Source of the DNA: Cucumis sativus | Taxonomy: Eukaryota; Streptophyta; Magnoliopsida; Cucurbitales; Cucurbitaceae | Length of the DNA stretch: 64,000 nucleotides | Assembly (NCBI RefSeq): GCF_000004075.3 | Contig: NC_026659.2 | Coordinates: 1,612,001 to 1,676,000 of the forward strand | Reading direction: 5' to 3' | Part shown: positions 38,582 through 49,571 of the stretch, piece after piece | How the letters are laid out: the number at the start of each line of letters is the position of its first letter | Position numbering within the stretch: position 1 is the first letter of the stretch | Made by a program: the position numbers and the translations under genes | Notes under the pieces: generated by a model | Told to the model about the DNA's origin: nothing | The model's database searches: none | What the model saw: the letters and a program-made list of their open reading frames with translations, nothing else

Positions 38582-41500
38582 ATGGCTCGGTTGGTTCTAC
38601 CATGCAAGAGCGTGGGATTGGCAAGGAATAACCTCTTGGGTTTGATTTCATCTGCTCCTGTGATTACCCATTTCCCAGTTTGCTTTATTTGTTTTTTTTT
38701 TTTAATTCCATGTTTGTACTTGTAGACAATTATTGTGGAGAAAATGCTGGGTTGAGAATGTAGGGAAGTTCTTTTTAACATCTCTACTAATTGAACTACT
38801 TTTATCATTTGAGGTTGCAAAATGGCTTGACCTTATTTTATGTTATGTTTTGTGTTACGAACATTTGTGAATTGTAGTCTTAGTCTTGAAGGTATGTTTT
38901 ATTTTACTGGCGGGGTTTCATGGGTTGGTTTCTATGTTCTCTGTGCAAAATAGTCTTTCTTGTGTCTGCATATTAGTTCATAAAATCTTTGTAGGATTGT
39001 GTGCATGAATTACTGTTTCTTTTTGTTGGCTGCATACAGTCTGTAAAGGATTTTTTTTCTTTGGCAGGTTCGAGCTGCACATAGGTGTGTTAATTCATTT
39101 GGAATTTCAGTCAAACGTAGCACTAGACAGAGGCCCTTATTCACTTCACAGGTTCTTGCAACTATCATCATTTTTTGGTTTTTACTTATAGTCGATAGAC
39201 ACATTACTGAACTGAATTCATTTTGTTTGTTACATGCATTTCATTCTTAGGGTTTATAAGAAAGAAGTGTAGGAAATTTCTAAATATTTAATTTAATTTG
39301 TTTTTTCTTTCCCTTTCAGGTGAAATCTGGACTGAATTATCGCTTTCCATATCATTTGCCGTTTGTAAGCTCTAATAACTTGATACTATGCATTCCATTC
39401 TAGCATGCCAGTTTCTACACATTCCTATTATTTGATTCTACTATTGTAGTGTCTTGTTTTGATAGTATTAGTCATCTAAGTTTCTTGCGTGTCAGAATGC
39501 ATTAGTAATTTTTTCAAAATTTAAGCTAATTATGCTCACCGTCCAAATTTTTTCAGGGGACTAAACAAGCTAGTAGGAAGCTGATTTGTTCAGTTGCAAC
39601 AGAACCATTGCAAGAAAAAGCTGAAGAGAACAAAATGGATGCACCTAAAGAAATATTTTTGAGAGATTACAAGATGACTGATTACTATTTTGAGACGGTA
39701 TGCAAACCTTAATTTGATTTTGGATTGAATTCTTTCAACATGACAGTTTCTTATATATTTTTGGGTACAACAAAATTCTTCTATAGGTCGATTTGAAATT
39801 TTTGTTGGGTGAGGAGAAAACAATTGTCAATTCAAGAATAACGGTGTTCCCTAGAGTTGAAGGTACGTAATATATTGTTAAGCGTTGTTATTTATTTTTT
39901 ATTTTTTATTTTTCAGTATTTCACCTGCAAATTTGAATGGAATTTCTGATAACATCAATGTTCATGTGGTTCCTCTCGTGTGAAATTTACTAGTAATCAA
40001 TTCAATTTTTTCTCTACTCTTTGGTTCAGAGTCCAATGCTCCTCTGGTTTTGAATGGTGAGGATATGAAGTTGATTTCAATTAAGATTAACAGTGAGGAC
40101 CTGAAGGTATGTGTACTGACGTGTGAAATTTCCCGCTTGTGCCAGACCCCTCTCTTTTGTATTGAGTTTGTTATAGTAGCTTGTGTCGGATTTGGACCCC
40201 TCTCCTTTTTTTTTTTTTTTTTTTTGTATATTCTTTCAATCATCATAATGAAAGCATGGTTCCCCCACCAAAAAAAAAAACAAAAAAGAAGTGAGAGGGA
40301 GAGGAAGAAAGATATGCGTACACAAGTGCATAATGCATGTGATCTTCAATCAGTCTCTACAGTAACAATGATGTGTGTCAACTATACTTTGGACTGCCAA
40401 TGCAAATTTCTCAAATGAATTTAGTTGCCTTCATATGATATTTGATGTAAAGGCAGTCCCCAATTTAATATTCTTATGGACTTAATTGTCTTTATTTCAT
40501 CTTTGACGCCCCCAAAACTTAGGAGGGTGATTACTATCTGGACTCCCGCCAATTGAAGATTCACTCACCACCTGCTGGAACTTTTACTTTGGAAATTGCC
40601 AATGAGATACAGCCTCAGAAAAACACATCTTTGGAGGTTAAACATGCATTCGCTGATAATTCTGTCTCTCTTTTATTTGTAAAGAGAGAAAAAAAGTGAT
40701 CATTATAGTTATTTTCACTGCAACTATAGAATTGACTGTGATATTGCCTTTGGATGAAGGGATTATATAAATCATCTGGAAATTTCTGCACACAATGTGA
40801 AGCTGAAGGTTTCCGGAAGATCACGTATTACCAGGTTGGAGGAGTTTGTTTTCTTTCGTTCAATGATGTATATAGATCTATATTTTAGGTCATCTGACAT
40901 ACAATTATCTAATGCTAAATGAATGTTGAGCAGGACCGTCCAGATATAATGGCAAAGTACACATGTCGCATAGAGGCCGATAAGTCATTGTACCCAGTGC
41001 TGCTCTCTAATGGAAATCTTATAGAACAGGGTGATTTAGAGGTGAACTTCATTTTACACAACTCCGTAGCATTTTGTAGGATGCACATGTTTAACAGTCA
41101 TCACATGCGTTGTTTCTGCAGGGTGGAAAACATTATGCCCTTTGGGAGGATCCCTTTAAGAAACCCTGCTACTTGTTTGCTTTAGTAGCTGGCAAGTTGG
41201 TAAGCAGAGACGATACTTTTATTACTCGTTCGGGTAGGAAAGTCTCCTTGAAGATATGGACCCCAGCTGAAGACTTACTCAAGACTGGGCATGCCATGTA
41301 TTCCTTGAAGGCAGCTATGAAATGGGATGAAGATGTTAGTATTTTTGTATATGATACATCAACACATTTTTCATTGATTTACATGCAAACAATACACAGG
41401 ATTTAATGCTATATCAATTTTGTTTTCATATGCTTAAAACAGGTTTTTGGATTAGAATATGATCTGGATCTCTTCAATATTGTGGCTGTTCCAGATTTCA

Positions 41501-44500
41501 ACATGTATATTCTCTCTATTATTATTATTGTTATTTATTATTTTTTTTGCTTTTGTTTCTGTTCATTTTGTCACTATTTAACTGACTCTAGATGATTTCA
41601 TAAAAAGTTTTATTTGATTACTTACTTGATTCTGATGGCCTCTTTTTCAATTAACCAGGGGAGCCATGGAAAACAAGAGTTTGAATGTATTGTCTCCTAA
41701 ACTTTGTTACTTTTGTGACCATGTGTATGATTTAAAAGTTGAAATTTTATTTCTCATTTTCTTTTCTTTGTTAACAGATTTTTAATTCAAAACTTGTCTT
41801 GGCATCTCCGGAGACTGCTTCTGATGCAGATTATGCTGCCATATTAGGAGTTATTGGTCATGAGGTTTGTCATAAAACTTTTGTCTCTCAAGCACTTATA
41901 ATCATATTTTCTTTTATACTAGTGCATAGTTACAATGATCACATGATCACATGATTTATTTTACATTGTCTTGCAGTATTTCCACAACTGGACTGGCAAC
42001 AGGTTGTTTTCACGAACCAATATATTATTGAAATTCAAATGTTGTTTGCCTTGAGTCATTTCTTATTTCCTGTTGATATTCAAATTCCTTTCTATTATGC
42101 AGGGTGACATGTCGTGATTGGTTCCAGCTGAGCCTTAAGGAAGGCCTTACTGTTTTCCGTGATCAGGTATGACATTTATCCCTTGAGATATTAGCAACTT
42201 CAACTTAAACACCTGATTGATCCTTGAAAATCTTCTTGTTGCCTCAACAACAGGAATTTTCGTCTGACATGGGAAGTCGTGCTGTGAAAAGAATTGCTGA
42301 TGTTTCAAGACTTAGAAACTATCAGTTTCCTCAGGTTCATCTTGTGTATCTGCTTTTAAGATTTCTATAACTTTACACACACAAATATATCATGCTTATA
42401 CTTTCTCTCACCAAGTTTTACTAGATTCCAATCGCTAGTTGAATTGATCTAGAAATTAGCATTTAAAGCTCATCTTGTCCCCTTCATTTCTTTTCTGCAG
42501 GATGCTGGTCCTATGGCTCATCCAGTTCGACCACATTCCTATATCAAGGTTAATAGTTATATAATATTTATGTGAACTTCTCTCTATATGCCTATTTATG
42601 TCCTAACGGTAATCCCAACATTCTACAGATGGACAATTTTTACACAGGAAAGTGTTATTCTCTATGGGTTTGCACAAAATTCCAGCTATTTGTTTGTTCT
42701 TTCCTTTCCAATTTTTGTTTCTTTTCTTCAATTTTTACTGATATGAATTTCTTTTTGAACCTTGGGTTTTCAATTTGCTTCTTCTATCAAGTTATGATCT
42801 AACAAGGGTCCTGTACCAACTTGAACATGCAGTGACGGTAGGCTTTATCATTGAGTCTTTACATGCTGTCAAGTTCATTTTCATATCTTTCTATAAAGGG
42901 ACTCTCTAATAATTGATTTCTCTTTGCAGGTCTATGAGAAGGTTTGTCATTTAAGCATAATGTTTCCCTCTTTTTTCTGGGTTAAGAAAAACCAATAACG
43001 AAACAGTTAATGCTTATGACCTTAGGGTGCTGAAGTCGTGAGGATGTACAAAACCTTATTGGGAAGTCAAGGATTTAGAAAAGTAAGGGTCGAAAATACT
43101 TTAATACTTTTCTAAGTGTATATTAAATCTGTAAAATTCTTTTGTCAGACCAAGAAAATGTTTGAGATATAGTATATAATATAATCCTTGTGCTCCAAGA
43201 CTATCTTTTGTTTGTTAGGTGAAGGAACCTAACAGATAGCTTTTAGGTTTAAGAAGTTGGTTGATAAAAATTGTTTATATCACAGGGCATGGATCTTTAC
43301 TTTAAAAGACATGATGGTCAAGCTGTTACCTGTGAAGATTTCTACGAGGCAATGCGAGATGCAAATGATGTTGATTTTGCTAACTTCTTATTATGGTACG
43401 TTATCCAAAAAACTTCTTGTTATGGTACAACCTTCTATTCTAGGGGTTGTACAAATTTGTCCTTGAGTTGTAACTTCTTAGTACGGAGTTTTTAACTTTT
43501 TGTTTCATTTTGAATTTTCTTCCATGCAAAATTTGTAGTGCTTATAAATATAACTAAAATTCAGGTACTCTCAAGCCGGGACCCCTCAAGTCAATGTTAC
43601 ATCATCTTACAATCCTGATGGTCATACATACACTTTAAAGTTCTCGTATATAATTCGTTCCTTGCTATTGACCTTCTTGATCTATTAGGAGTTGTTTACA
43701 AGTTATATTAAGTAGTTGGAATTCCACAGGCAATATGTTCCGCCAACTCCTGGGCAGCCAATTAAAGAGCCAATGTTTATACCTGTTGCTCTTGGTTTGC
43801 TAAACTCGTCTGGTTGTAATATGCCTCTTTCCTCCGTATATCATGATGGGGTATTGCAGTCTATATGTGGAGCTAATCAACAGCCAGTCTTCTCCACAGT
43901 CCTCAGGCTGACTAAGGTTAGCAGAGAAATTATATTAGTTAGTGATTGCTTCATTTAGAAACTGCTTATGAACGATAGCTGTTGGTGATTAGATTTATTT
44001 GTGGCTATGGTAGATTCTGCTTTCCCAATTAAGGTAGAGTTGAACATCTTGGGAAGCTTAGAGCACTTGTTTGTTTTTGCTTTTGATCGGGAAAAATAAG
44101 ATTGAGTTAATTTCATTTGCTAAGAACTGGAGATTTAGGAAGTAGGGACACCACATTTTCCTTTATCTATTGATTTCTATGCTTGATGCAGAAAGAAGAA
44201 GAGTTCGTCTTCTCGGAAGTACCTGAGCGGCCAGTTCCATCTTTGTTTAGGGGCTACAGTGCTCCTGTCCGTGTGGAAACAGATCTAAGTGATGATGATC
44301 TATTTTTCCTCCTCGCCAATGATTCAGATGAGTTCAACCGGTCTGTATTTATATTGAAAATTTTGTAGGTTAATTCATTATTATAACTATTAAGGCTCTT
44401 CTTTCTGGTCATTTTGTGATTTAGTTGGGAGGCTGGACAAGTGTTGGCTCGGAAACTGATGCTCCAACTGGTGGCTGATCACCAACAACATAAGCCATTG

Positions 44501-47156
44501 GTTCTCACCTCAAAGTTTGTTCAGGGTCTGAAATCCATACTTCGTGACACAAGTTTGGATAAAGTATGTTGGGTACTTCGTTTTGTACTTTAGTTTCTTT
44601 GAAGTTCCTACTTTCTGTTCTTTCACCGAACCAATTTTGGTGCGAAGCTGGTGTGGAGACACAATACTGATGATGAAAATTAATAACCATTGGTAATCCA
44701 GGAATTCATTGCCAAAGCAATAACACTTCCTGGCGAAGGGGAAATAATGGACATGATGGAGGTCGCAGATCCTGATGCTGTTCATGCTGTTCGAACTTTC
44801 ATTAGGAAGGAACTGGCCTATGCATTGAAAGAAGATCTTCTTACTACAGTATGGACTTCGCTGGACATGCAATTTATTGAAGAGATCCATACTATTATTC
44901 TGTACTTAAATTTTTACCATTGATCTTCACAGGTACACAACAATAGAAGTTCAGAAAATTATGAATTTAACCATCCTGAAATGGCCAGGCGTGCTTTGAA
45001 GAATACTGCTCTAGGTTTGTTCGAGGAAACTAATTTTGTGTGAACTACTGGTTTTGTGAAATTTTCAAGTGAACTAACATCTTCAGTTTCTTTGATGATT
45101 TTCAGTATATCTTGCATTAATTGAGGATACTGAGATTGCGGATCTTGTGCTTCATGAGTATAAGATTGCCTCGAATATGACTGAGCAATTTGCAGCTTTG
45201 GCAGCTATAGCTCAGAAGCCAGGTGAAACTCGTGACAAGATTCTTGCTGACTTCTATAGCAAGTGGCAGCATGACTATTTGGTTAGTCATTAACTCTTCT
45301 CTTCTCATTTGATGATGTAGCATTTATACGTAGTTTATAATTCTTAATTTGAGTCTATAAAATGGAAGATTCAATCTCTTTGAAATTCAATATTTTTTGA
45401 AGCCTGCAGGGTCCTATAAAGTAGATATTATTTGAGTGTTCCTTAGAATTTTAGACTGTTTGATGTTTGCTTGCATTTATTAGCATGAGAGGAGCTTAAG
45501 AATGACAGTAGCATCCAAGATTCTGATAGCAGAGAAAATCGGTTTGTTTTATTTGTATCTTTTGGCAAATTGGAACACATCTTTTAGAAGAATTATAAAT
45601 TTGAAATGAAAGCGAAGGGATAACTCATTAGTAAGAGAGTCTTGCAAGAGAGTGAGCCAGAATCTTGTTTGAAAGAATCTGAATCATAGTTGGAGAAACA
45701 AGCCTTTAAAAGGTTAGTTCTGTATAAGAAAAAAATGGTTGAAGAAACAGCAAAAGGAAGAATAAAAAAGTTAGATCAATCTTCCAAGGAAGAATCTGAA
45801 TTTGATTTAGGAAAAAGCCATTCAGAAGATGCTTTCGGAAAAAAGAATAAAGGAACGCAACATAAGGAAAGAGGTTTCAATGGGTCTTGTTTCTCGATGA
45901 TTTAGAAGTTGATTGATGCAATATGATGGGAAGGATTTGTACTTTAAGAAGAAAAAATAGACATTGAAGCAATTGAGATGTTTAAGAGGGTTTAACTTTA
46001 GTACTCTTGGTGAAGATTTAAGGAAACATAGAAATTGGAGGAGCTGAATGGAGATTTTAAGTTTGGATACCATGTTTTTTTCAAGAACCCACGACCCCCA
46101 AGATTAATTTTATGAAATTATAGTTATTTGGGACTTTCATAAGCTATCGTATTGGAGTTTTTTTAGCTGAAGACAACGAATTTGATTGGACTTGGAAGTT
46201 CTTTTTTTAATTTTAAATCATTAGTAAGTAGTTTTGCAGTAATAATCCGAGCTTCTATTTCTTTAAAACTCAAGACAAGGAGGGAGGGAGGATAATTAGT
46301 AGTGGTGATTGTTGGTTGTTTGTAATTCTTAGTTTGAGTTTTTATTTGTTGTTTGCTAATTGTTTATTCCATTGAAGTTAAATCTCTTGCACTGATATGC
46401 TTTGAACAATAAGAAAGATTTGGTTGAACCGTTTTTAGTTTTTGACTCTTGGTTGTATTCTTCCGAAAAGGTCTATATAATTCTTTGAATTGCTTCTTCA
46501 AATTGTTGTGACAATTGTTTTTCTACACTTCTCTGGTAGGTTGTCAATAAATGGTTTGCTCTTCAAGCCATGTCAGACATTCCTGGTAATGTCGAGAATG
46601 TTCGGAACCTCCTAAATCACAAGGCCTTTGACTTGCGAAATCCAAACAAGGTATATTCTTTGATTGGAGGCTTCTGCGGATCAATTGTTAACTTTCACTC
46701 AAAGGACGGATCGGGCTACAAATTCTTGGGAGAAATTGTCATGCAACTAGACAAAATTAATCCCCAGGTCAGCTCAGAATCTTAACTCGCTTCAGCTGTA
46801 GAATTGGTGCAGCGATCTCAGTGTTAAAAATTTTTCCTCCATCGACCAGTGAGAGTCCGACTGTGCTATTCTTTTTCTCTGATTGATGTGCTGATGATTG
46901 TAGGTTGCCTCTCGAATGGTCTCTGCATTCTCAAGATGGAAGCGTTATGACGAAACGCGACAAGAACTTGCCAAGGTAATGTTGCTTTGTATGATTGGAA
47001 AATGGAATTTGTTATCTGCTGGTTGGCATTTTTGGTTTGTGATAATGATGATGATGATGATGATATTCTTTACAGGGACAACTGGAGATCATAATGTCTG
47101 CCAATGGACTGTCTGAAAATGTGTTTGAAATTGCATCAAAAAGCTTAGCAGCTTGA
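38582..47156 (+). CDS. M1-family zinc aminopeptidase (puromycin-sensitive/PepN-like), organellar form
   Basis: Metallopeptidase that removes N-terminal residues from peptides. Coding exons: 38582-38659 (or -38677), 39068-39151, 39320-39364, 39557-39697, 39787-39862, 40030-40106, 40523-40636, 40760-40834, 40934-41041, 41122-41334, 41443-41504, 41659-41686, 41778-41864, 41977-42002, 42103-42166, 42254-42334, 42501-42548, 42629-42647, 42833-42837, 42930-42941, 43026-43082, 43286-43395, 43565-43645, 43730-43916, 44192-44340, 44425-44563, 44702-44848, 44933-45014, 45106-45281, 46540-46767, 46904-46975 and 47076-47156. They sum to 2952 nt, in frame, 983 residues. The N-terminus [19 protein letters not shown] is rich in Arg/Ser/Leu, as in a plastid/mitochondrial transit peptide. 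GAMEN substrate motif (exons 11-12 junction), HEYFH split between exons 13 and 14, and the third zinc ligand Glu 18 residues on (LSLKEGL) are all present. It ends EIASKSLAA, as in Arabidopsis At1g63770. One oddity: the donor after 42647 reads GA. Confidence 0.93.
40165..40290 (+). mobile_element. Short 3'-end LINE relic in an aminopeptidase intron
   Basis: Inside the 40107-40522 intron. It contains a T run (about 40206-40225), the motif GTATATTCTTTCAATCATC, then ATGAAAGCATGGTT and an A-rich tail (40270-40290). The motif order matches the minus-strand relic at 1337-1745, so both descend from one family. Only the 3' UTR and tail remain. The left boundary is uncertain. Confidence 0.55.
42833..42837 (+). 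other. 5-nt microexon of the aminopeptidase gene
   Basis: TGACG lies between acceptor CATGCAG and donor GTAGGC. With the preceding exon ending ACA-G and the following 12-nt exon GTCTATGAGAAG (42930-42941), it restores the family sequence FYTVTVYEKGAEVV. Without it the frame is lost. Very small exons need special recognition and are often missed by gene finders. Confidence 0.8.
45282..46539 (+). other. Large 1.26-kb aminopeptidase intron with a foreign-looking insert
   Basis: The other introns of this gene are all shorter than about 420 nt. The middle part (about 45,480-46,080) is purine-rich and includes a 71-codon open frame at 45690-45905, rich in Lys/Glu, that I cannot assign. Composition unlike the flanking intron suggests an old insertion, perhaps of transposon origin. 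Confidence 0.4.
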
Positions 47157-48140
47157 AAATATATATCATTGATCTAATAGGATTGTGATGGGTTTATAAT
47201 AATAACATTCTTCTCACCTCTTCGGCCTCAATTTAGAAAAGAAATGCTCGTTTGAGTTTCAAGTGCCTTCCGTTGTAGTGGATTTTACATTTTAACTCAT
47301 CTATAAACTTTTCTTTATTTTTTTCTTATCCATTTCCTACCATTACTAAATAAAAGCCCCTTTGTTTTGCTTTGGCCTATAAGTTTTTAGTGTCAATTTT
47401 CACCTTACATGAATATTTGAAAATTAGCTTAGTTTTTTCTTTAAATATATATACATTCATCTTTTTTACCTCATCTATACTGCATATATCATAAAAATAT
47501 ATTACTTTTTAAGAAGAGGAGAATTATATTACTTATTTTTTTTTTAACAAGATAAAAAATTATAGACTATTTTTATATTAATTTCTAACAGTAAATAAGC
47601 TCAAATATGACTTACATGCAGCAATATTATATTATTTTGCAACGAAATAATAATATACATGTAGACAATGGAATAATAACATTAATTACTAATAGTAATT
47701 TACTCATTTACATGCTTCCCAAAAAAAAAAAAAAAAAGAATTATTTACGTACACTTTGAAAATCACGGTGGAGATCGGTTTTCTTGATCAAATGACAAGA
47801 ATAATTGAAATATTAAATTAAGATTCCATCCATGAATAACTTTAGCTAATAGTTTAAGTAATTTTTCCTAAGTTCAAATTGTAGATCAATAATGTAACAG
47901 AATTAATGAAACTTTGGAGGTAATTTTCAAATATAGCATAAGAATGTATGATATTCTTCTTATTTAAGTATTTTTTTGTTAAAAAGATTAGACACTAATT
48001 AATAGAGTTGTATTTGCATGAAAATAAACATATAGAATCCATAATTATAAATTTAATAATGAAGGCAAGCAGTCAAGCTTGTTCCCGTCCTTGTCTTCAT
48101 CAATATTTTGTTCCTCTAACTTTCCCGATCGATTTCATCG
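47157..48140. other. Intergenic region between the aminopeptidase and BTB genes
   Basis: It holds the aminopeptidase 3' UTR (to about 47,350), AT-rich spacer with a poly(A) tract at 47,719-47,736, and the BTB-gene promoter/leader. No TATA box stands out. No extra gene is seen. Confidence 0.5.
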
Positions 48141-49571
48141 ATGAAGTCTCCCCCAATTTCAGCTTCGATTTCTTCTTCTCCGATTCTACCGCAGCTGTTA
48201 AACCCTGAATCTAACATTGTCACCGTTAATGTTGGTGGCCACCTCTTTCAAACCACCAAGCAAACCCTAGCCATAGCCGGTTCCAGTTCTCTGTTATCAA
48301 CCATCTCCGATTCATCGCAATCCCTCGTACCCTTTATCGATCGAGATCCCGATCTCTTTTCCCTCATTCTTTCGCTTCTTAGAACCGGTTATCTTCCTTC
48401 CAAAGCCAAAGCCTTTGATCTCCAAGACCTTATTTCAGAGTCCCAGTTCTATGGAGTTGAATCCCTTTTAATCAATTCTCTTTCTAATCCTTCTCAATTC
48501 GAAGCTTTTAATCTCGAGAAATCTCTGATTCTCCCTCTCAATGGTCGAGATTCTCCGTCGACAATCGCGTCAACGCCGTTTGGATCACTCCATGTCGCTC
48601 ACGGCGGCAAGATCACCTCTTTTGATTGGTCGCTTCAGAGAAAGACGACGATTCTAACGCAATTCTCCGTCATTGATTCTCTTTTAGCGTTGTCGCCATC
48701 ACTGGCCGCTGCCGGCGCTACCGACTTCTCTGGTTTGCAAATCCTCAATCTTCAAACAGGCCAAGTGAAATCAATTCTTAATTGGGAGAATGTGACTCGG
48801 TCCAGTTCTACCGTGCAAGCCATCGGAGCTTCTTCTGAGCTTCTCTTCACCAGCTTCGAATCAGGCAGAAGAAACTCAAATTCCATAATGATATACGATT
48901 TACAAACCTTCAATCCAGTTACTGAAATCGCTCACAACGAGATCTACGGTGCGGAGATTGATTCAGCAATCCCAGCCACAATGTTGAAATGGGTTGCAGG
49001 TTATAATCTGTTAATGGCTTCTGGGTCTCACAGTGGACCTTCTGGAGTACAGGGTAACATTAAATTCTGGGACATTAGGAGTGGGAACATAGCTTGGGAG
49101 GTGAAGGAGAAGGTGGATTGTTTCTCAGACATGACTGTATGTGAGAATCTATCTGCCATTTTCAAGATTGGTGTGAGCTCTGGTGAAGTTTATAGTGCAG
49201 ATTTGAGAAAACTTGGAGATGAGAATCCATGGATTTGTCTTGGGGATAGGATGAAGGTGATGAATGGGAAGAAAGTTGGGGTTGGAGGGAAGATTGAGAG
49301 TTACGGAAATCAAGTGTTTTGCAGCAGAGAAGGAGGGAGTATAGAGTTATGGTCTGAAGTAACAGTTGGGAATGGAGGAAATAAGGAAGGAGGATTAGGG
49401 TTAGAGGAGAGAGTTTTTAGGAAGAATTTGATGGGGAGAATGAAGGATTTGGGAGGTGGGAAAGTAATGAAATTAGGATTTGGTGGGAATAAGATGTTTG
49501 TGATAAGAAAAGATGAACAATGTGTGGAGGTTTGGAAGAGTTCAGGTAAGGGATTTTGGGATGCTTTGTAA
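48141..49571 (+). CDS. BTB/POZ (T1-type) protein with WD40/YVTN-like C-terminus
   Basis: An intronless 476-residue protein. A short Ser/Pro-rich N-terminus is followed by a potassium-channel-tetramerisation-type BTB domain at about residues 25-115, starting NIVTVNVGGHLFQTTKQTL and including DRDPDLFSLILSLLRTGYLP. The rest (about 150-475) has weak beta-propeller character: repeated strands with GLQILNLQTGQV, SIMIYDLQTF, NIKFWDIRSG, SIELWSEV and CVEVWKSS. Arabidopsis relatives include At5g41330, At2g24240 and At4g30940. BTB proteins of this type commonly act as substrate adaptors for CUL3 ubiquitin ligases; that role is inferred here, not shown. The start ATG (CATCGATGAAG) follows a pyrimidine-rich leader. 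A glycine-rich, low-complexity insertion (VGNGGNKEGGLGLEE) occurs late in the propeller. Confidence 0.9.
   Translation: MKSPPISASISSSPILPQLLNPESNIVTVNVGGHLFQTTKQTLAIAGSSSLLSTISDSSQSLVPFIDRDPDLFSLILSLLRTGYLPSKAKAFDLQDLISESQFYGVESLLINSLSNPSQFEAFNLEKSLILPLNGRDSPSTIASTPFGSLHVAHGGKITSFDWSLQRKTTILTQFSVIDSLLALSPSLAAAGATDFSGLQILNLQTGQVKSILNWENVTRSSSTVQAIGASSELLFTSFESGRRNSNSIMIYDLQTFNPVTEIAHNEIYGAEIDSAIPATMLKWVAGYNLLMASGSHSGPSGVQGNIKFWDIRSGNIAWEVKEKVDCFSDMTVCENLSAIFKIGVSSGEVYSADLRKLGDENPWICLGDRMKVMNGKKVGVGGKIESYGNQVFCSREGGSIELWSEVTVGNGGNKEGGLGLEERVFRKNLMGRMKDLGGGKVMKLGFGGNKMFVIRKDEQCVEVWKSSGKGFWDAL

Follow-up and report, generated by a model that had tools for sequence, protein, structure and literature searches.

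The window analysed here is a 64-kb stretch of the cucumber genome (contig 5, 1612001-1676000; all positions below are counted within the window unless a contig is named), and it carries an aminopeptidase gene in which one intron departs from the usual splice-site rules. The features that concern this intron are the following, with a slash marking exon boundaries.

38582..47156, plus strand: PepN-type M1 aminopeptidase gene, 32 exons joined by hand from homology, 983 aa
42501..42548, plus strand: exon 17, with donor AAG/GTTAAT
42629..42647, plus strand: exon 18, 19 nt, ATGGACAATTTTTACACAG, coding for MDNFYT and the first base of a Val codon
42648..42832, plus strand: intron 18, GA-AG, 185 nt, T content 0.45 (8th of 31 introns)
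42648..42649, plus strand: GA donor dinucleotide, the +2 base being 42649
42652..42653, plus strand: rival GT that lengthens the exon by 4 nt; frameshift, 480-aa product
42654..42655, plus strand: rival GT that lengthens the exon by 6 nt; in frame, FYT-GK-LTVYEKG, 985 aa
42799..42803, plus strand: CTAAC, which we take to be branch-site-like, its A lying 30 nt before the end of intron 18
42833..42837, plus strand: exon 19, 5-nt microexon TGACG, phase 1, in the context tgcag/TGACG/gtaggc
42930..42941, plus strand: exon 20, 12-nt microexon GTCTATGAGAAG (VYEK), phase 0, carrying Tyr479
43026..43082, plus strand: exon 21

The joined coding sequence comes to 2952 nt with the frame intact and a single stop, which is terminal, so that the whole-codon sum claimed for the 32 exons in an earlier sequence-only reading of this DNA is borne out. 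Three characters place the product among the PepN-type enzymes: a full-length match to TIGR02414 (profile positions 1-868 of 868; 1238.5 bits against a cut-off of 718.2, obtained with the 888-aa part lacking the N-terminus), the sequence HEYFH, which we take to be the HEXXH motif, and a catalytic Tyr. The protein contains the Pfam domains Peptidase_M1, Peptidase_M1_N, DUF3458 and DUF3458_C, and E. coli PepN aligns with its residues 98-982. In this alignment Tyr479 pairs with PepN Tyr381, a residue reported to contribute to the oxyanion hole (PMC12190285).

We searched the 226.6-Mb assembly (88 contigs) for further copies of the gene. A genome-wide protein search found no second copy, since 23 of 23 matches at E<=0.001 fell inside the window's gene, although this search scored the best candidates only and a very diverged copy could be missed; at that sensitivity the earlier statement that this is the only apparent copy can be extended to the whole genome. 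Fourteen exon matches to PF01433 on contigs 3, 4 and 5 were considered as copies and set aside, as they were absent from the protein search at E 0.001; the PF01433 genome search did not recover the window's own aminopeptidase gene, presumably because of its short exons, whereas the protein search found it. In Arabidopsis, AT1G63770 encodes meiotic prophase aminopeptidase 1 (MPA1; PMC9322406) and is likely the orthologue, judging solely by the shared microexon structure. As a separate observation, intron 29 (45282-46539) measures 1258 nt, three times the next longest intron of the gene (416 nt); a mobile insert was considered there and rejected, given that the genome contains 45350-46500 only once. 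Downstream of the gene, at 48120-49571, lies an uninterrupted 483-aa frame containing a BTB/POZ domain as well as a beta propeller of the At2g24240-like type.

The pair of microexons is already known, and the GA donor is the unusual part. Microexons of plant Peptidase M1 genes have been grouped into cluster 7 (5 nt, phase 1) and cluster 28 (12 nt, phase 0), with AT1G63770.5 as the cluster example (Yu et al. 2022, PMC8831610), and an adjacent 5-nt and 12-nt pair has been proven by RT-PCR in rice Os08t0562700 (PMC8831610). Exons 19 and 20 match these clusters in family, sizes, phases and adjacency, a 5-nt phase-1 exon adjoining a 12-nt phase-0 exon in a Peptidase M1 gene. That survey, however, counts GT-AG and GC-AG introns only, a filter that would miss a GA-flanked member; the intron 5' of the cucumber 5-nt exon is GA-AG and falls outside it.

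Intron 18 opens with GA (CAG/GAAAGTG), whereas the remaining 30 of the gene's 31 donors are GT. Its junction is fixed in position by homology to the PepN family: ACA-G/TG-ACG/GTC-TAT reads FYT-V-T-V-Y, ungapped against the FYT-L-T-V-Y of PepN, and the joined peptide MDNFYTVTVYEKGAEVVRM aligns without gaps to MNNFYTLTVYEKGAEVIRM of the E. coli enzyme. The pattern NFYTxT[V/I]YxK occurs without insertion in 80 of 80 bacterial loci, these being the best 80 of 592 relatives, a biased sample chosen by similarity to the GA-spliced query (one pattern was YIKMDNFY). At this homology-supported junction the intron starts with GA and ends with AG, as a U2-type GA-AG intron does; the same mRNA junction could be written in three other registers (GG-CA, AG-GC and CA-TG), none of them canonical. 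The string CAGGAAAGT occurs once in the 64-kb window with both strands counted, and CAGGTAAGT is absent from both strands of the window. The sequence-only reading had described this arrangement correctly: exon 42629-42647 does end in ACAG followed by GAAAGTG, and the 5-nt exon (42833-42837) and the 12-nt exon (42930-42941) do restore FYT-VT-VYEKG.

The surroundings of the GA are those of a strong donor. The site agrees with CAG/GTAAGT at eight of nine positions, all but +2, so that its earlier description as a perfect plant donor except for the A at +2 is accurate; the other 30 donors of the gene agree at four to seven of nine, and none of the 30 matches at all eight positions outside +2. It also has AG before the junction together with A at +3, a combination shared by 4 of the 30 GT donors, and thus shows the full context looked for in a GA-AG donor (consensus outside +2, AG before, A at +3). 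Predicted in-register pairing with the 5' end of U1 is -9.3 kcal/mol with +2 unpaired, the best value among the 31 donors. The acceptor is TGCAG, and the intron is otherwise well formed. Since a random mutation or error would seldom hit so strong a site, we lean towards the view that the GA donor works; the reasoning is contextual and falls short of proof, and the donors compared all come from one gene.

The same consideration bears on whether the A is an error of the assembly and the plant carries GT (or GC) at 42648-42649, which among the alternatives we place first and yet regard as unlikely. Changing one base would complete the donor consensus, the exons and introns on either side look normal, and according to a plant survey some false non-canonical sites stem from sequencing and assembly errors (PMC6310983); on the other hand, such an error is less likely to fall by chance on the donor with the strongest context in the gene than on an average one.

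An A at +2 would find a U1 partner if U1 carried U at position 7. No such compensating U1 was found: all 20 U1 matches have A at position 7, where 20 is at least the number present, only 41 of 2632 first-look candidates having been scored, so that a further copy is possible. With the same 41 of 2632 candidates scored, the copepod-type change at position 8 was absent as well, all 15 matches over the Rfam cut-off having C there. The GA site, if it works, most likely uses ordinary U1. U1 genes are numerous in this genome, with at least 15 matches over the Rfam cut-off and at least 20 matches in all; six of the 20 are grouped in roughly 115 kb on contig 1 (24978250-25093277), and two close pairs occur on contigs 2 and 5. 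One gene of contig 1 (24984849-24985014, plus strand) has a changed 5' end, GTACATACCTG, with A at position 5; it has a TATA-like box and a 10/10 match to what we take to be the upstream element. This variant could favour donors with T at +4.

A second alternative is that the +2 change is real and destroys the splice site, so that the allele is weak or has lost its function; we likewise think this unlikely, ranking it after the base error. In a human minigene study, five of six +2T>A changes gave abnormal transcripts only and one of six kept 12% full-length product, at sites mostly chosen because their +2T>C change was leaky, so that GA is usually dead even there (PMC12805630). In cucumber, early stops are predicted after skipping of exon 18 (469 aa), skipping of exon 19 (477 aa), use of the +4 GT (480 aa) or retention of the intron (526 aa); joint skipping of exons 18 and 19 stays in frame and removes MDNFYTVT (-8 aa). 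Loss of the enzyme is not necessarily lethal, since leaf extracts were obtained from Arabidopsis MPA1 mutants (PMC9322406). Against a broken allele, no second copy was found genome-wide, no other lesion occurs across the 32 exons, and so strong a donor context would be unusual for a random hit. The choice that the sequence-only reading offered between a GA-AG intron, a +2 mutation and a base error is sound as far as it goes, but it missed two in-frame ways out, namely splicing at GT 42654 and the omission of exons 18 and 19 together. Similarly, it is true that the nearest GT, at 42652, shifts the frame; the GT two bases further on does not, and adds two residues.

We enumerated splice paths from exon 17 to exon 21, with AG acceptors, no intron shorter than 60 nt, no exon longer than 150 nt and no more than three internal exons. 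The family peptide was absent from all 789 distinct in-frame proteins enumerated with GT donors and from all 1527 enumerated with GT or GC. The top rival path scored 238 against 251; it needs a 1-nt exon and replaces VT with GK; the second (236) extends exon 18 by 6 nt to GT 42654 and keeps the normal 5-nt and 12-nt exons. Scores against TIGR02414 are 1238.5 bits for the GA form, 1230.3 for the +6 form and 1201.2 with exons 18 and 19 skipped. Being made on proteins, these tests lean by construction towards the conserved peptide, and they measure protein fit rather than RNA.

The second of these paths corresponds to a donor that has moved 6 nt downstream, which would leave an enzyme with an inserted Gly-Lys; we consider this clearly unlikely. 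GT 42654 is a canonical GT-AG solution in frame with the same microexons and causes no early stop, and the plant survey reports that splicing which misses a site usually turns next to one that keeps the frame (PMC6310983). The gene also tolerates weak donors, given that six of its 30 GT donors (at 38659, 41504, 41686, 43645, 44563 and 44848) pair only weakly with U1 in register, at -1.8 to -0.5 kcal/mol. At GT 42654, however, in-register pairing is +1.1 kcal/mol, weaker than at any of the 31 donors; a free local duplex had placed the rival GTs in shifted registers (-1.8 kcal/mol for 42654), and the in-register values supersede it. The site agrees with the consensus at four of nine positions by hand count, its use lowers the TIGR02414 score by 8.2 bits, and the two added residues would stand 4-5 positions ahead of the catalytic Tyr, at a place where none of the 80 relatives (the best 80 of 592) has an insertion.

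That GA 42648 and GT 42654 compete as in-frame tandem donors, 6 bases apart around one strong U1 site, is less probable still, as every real donor of the gene has better in-register U1 pairing than the +6 GT. If true, a single gene would yield two forms, FYT-VT-VYEKG and FYT-GK-LT-VYEKG, with the difference next to the catalytic Tyr; plants would then have their own version of the human FGFR GA/GT pair, within a microexon cluster. The FGFR introns resemble intron 18 in being U2-like GA-AG introns with a GT six bases from the GA (PMC7072748, PMC4176328, PMC5714493); in FGFR genes, however, the GT is six bases upstream and is needed for recognition of the GA, whereas the cucumber GT is weak and downstream. 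A helper GT of the FGFR type is absent six bases upstream, the bases 5' of the GA being TTTTTACACAG.

GA-AG introns are very rare, with 14 of 161,774 annotated introns in Arabidopsis (PMC10668435), but a lone GA donor that works is known from a plant. In Trema orientalis, SYMRK intron 12 is GA-AG and is spliced to about 95%; the corresponding Parasponia gene, given a GA, complemented the mutant (PMC10668435). As in cucumber, this is a lone GA donor in a single-copy and otherwise intact plant gene, and the GA was first taken for a critical mutation. The cases differ in that most dicot relatives of the Trema gene have GC at the site and its function was established by RNA-seq and complementation, while the cucumber site is read from sequence; moreover, the next exon in cucumber is a 5-nt microexon. 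The copepod Eurytemora affinis provides a further comparison, with GA/GG donors in 36 of 297 introns across ten genes, which always or almost always have a preceding AG and an A at +3 (PMC5714493), both also found at the cucumber donor. Its U1 is reported as normal in one study (PMC5714493) and as changed at position 8 in one of five copies in another (PMC7072748). Unlike the copepod, where the sites are many and the introns unique to the animal, cucumber has one site at an intron position known in other plants.

The explanation that we hold to be probable, if with some reserve, is that intron 18 belongs to the U2-type GA-AG introns and that its GA donor is used at least some of the time. It is supported by a gene otherwise intact over 32 exons with no second copy found, by the lack of any enumerated GT or GC path to the family peptide, by the top TIGR02414 score of the GA form among the three forms, by the strongest donor context and U1 pairing in the gene together with CTAAC and a T-rich intron, and by working precedents in Trema SYMRK and one human +2T>A change. 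It is weakened by the great rarity of GA-AG introns, the five of six human +2T>A changes without a normal transcript, the existence of in-frame ways out and the failure to find a compensating U1. From the sequence itself, the intact gene, the one junction that fits the family among the paths tested and the strong context, we infer splicing at GA, its efficiency and its GT ancestry as follows: the donor was most likely canonical at first and acquired a T-to-A change at +2; ordinary U1 would still bind, the other consensus positions being paired; and intron 18 would be removed at CAG/GA often enough to supply mRNA for the conserved FYT-VT-VYEKG, perhaps with some retention or shifted splicing alongside.

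GA-AG introns as a kind are known, and the aminopeptidase instance appears to be new: the open-licence literature, queried for gene name and donor separately, yielded no report of such a donor in the gene. Programs for gene finding or RNA mapping in which a donor has to be GT or GC could overlook intron 18 and the 5-nt exon, and reads across the working GA-AG intron of human ITPR1 have indeed been misaligned to a false GT-AG intron (PMC4176328); the enzyme may accordingly be misannotated, or wrongly called broken, in the cucumber genome. If intron 18 is spliced at the GA, it would join the few plant GA-AG introns for which a whole family provides a clear test of the frame, and would offer a natural test of donor choice beside a microexon.
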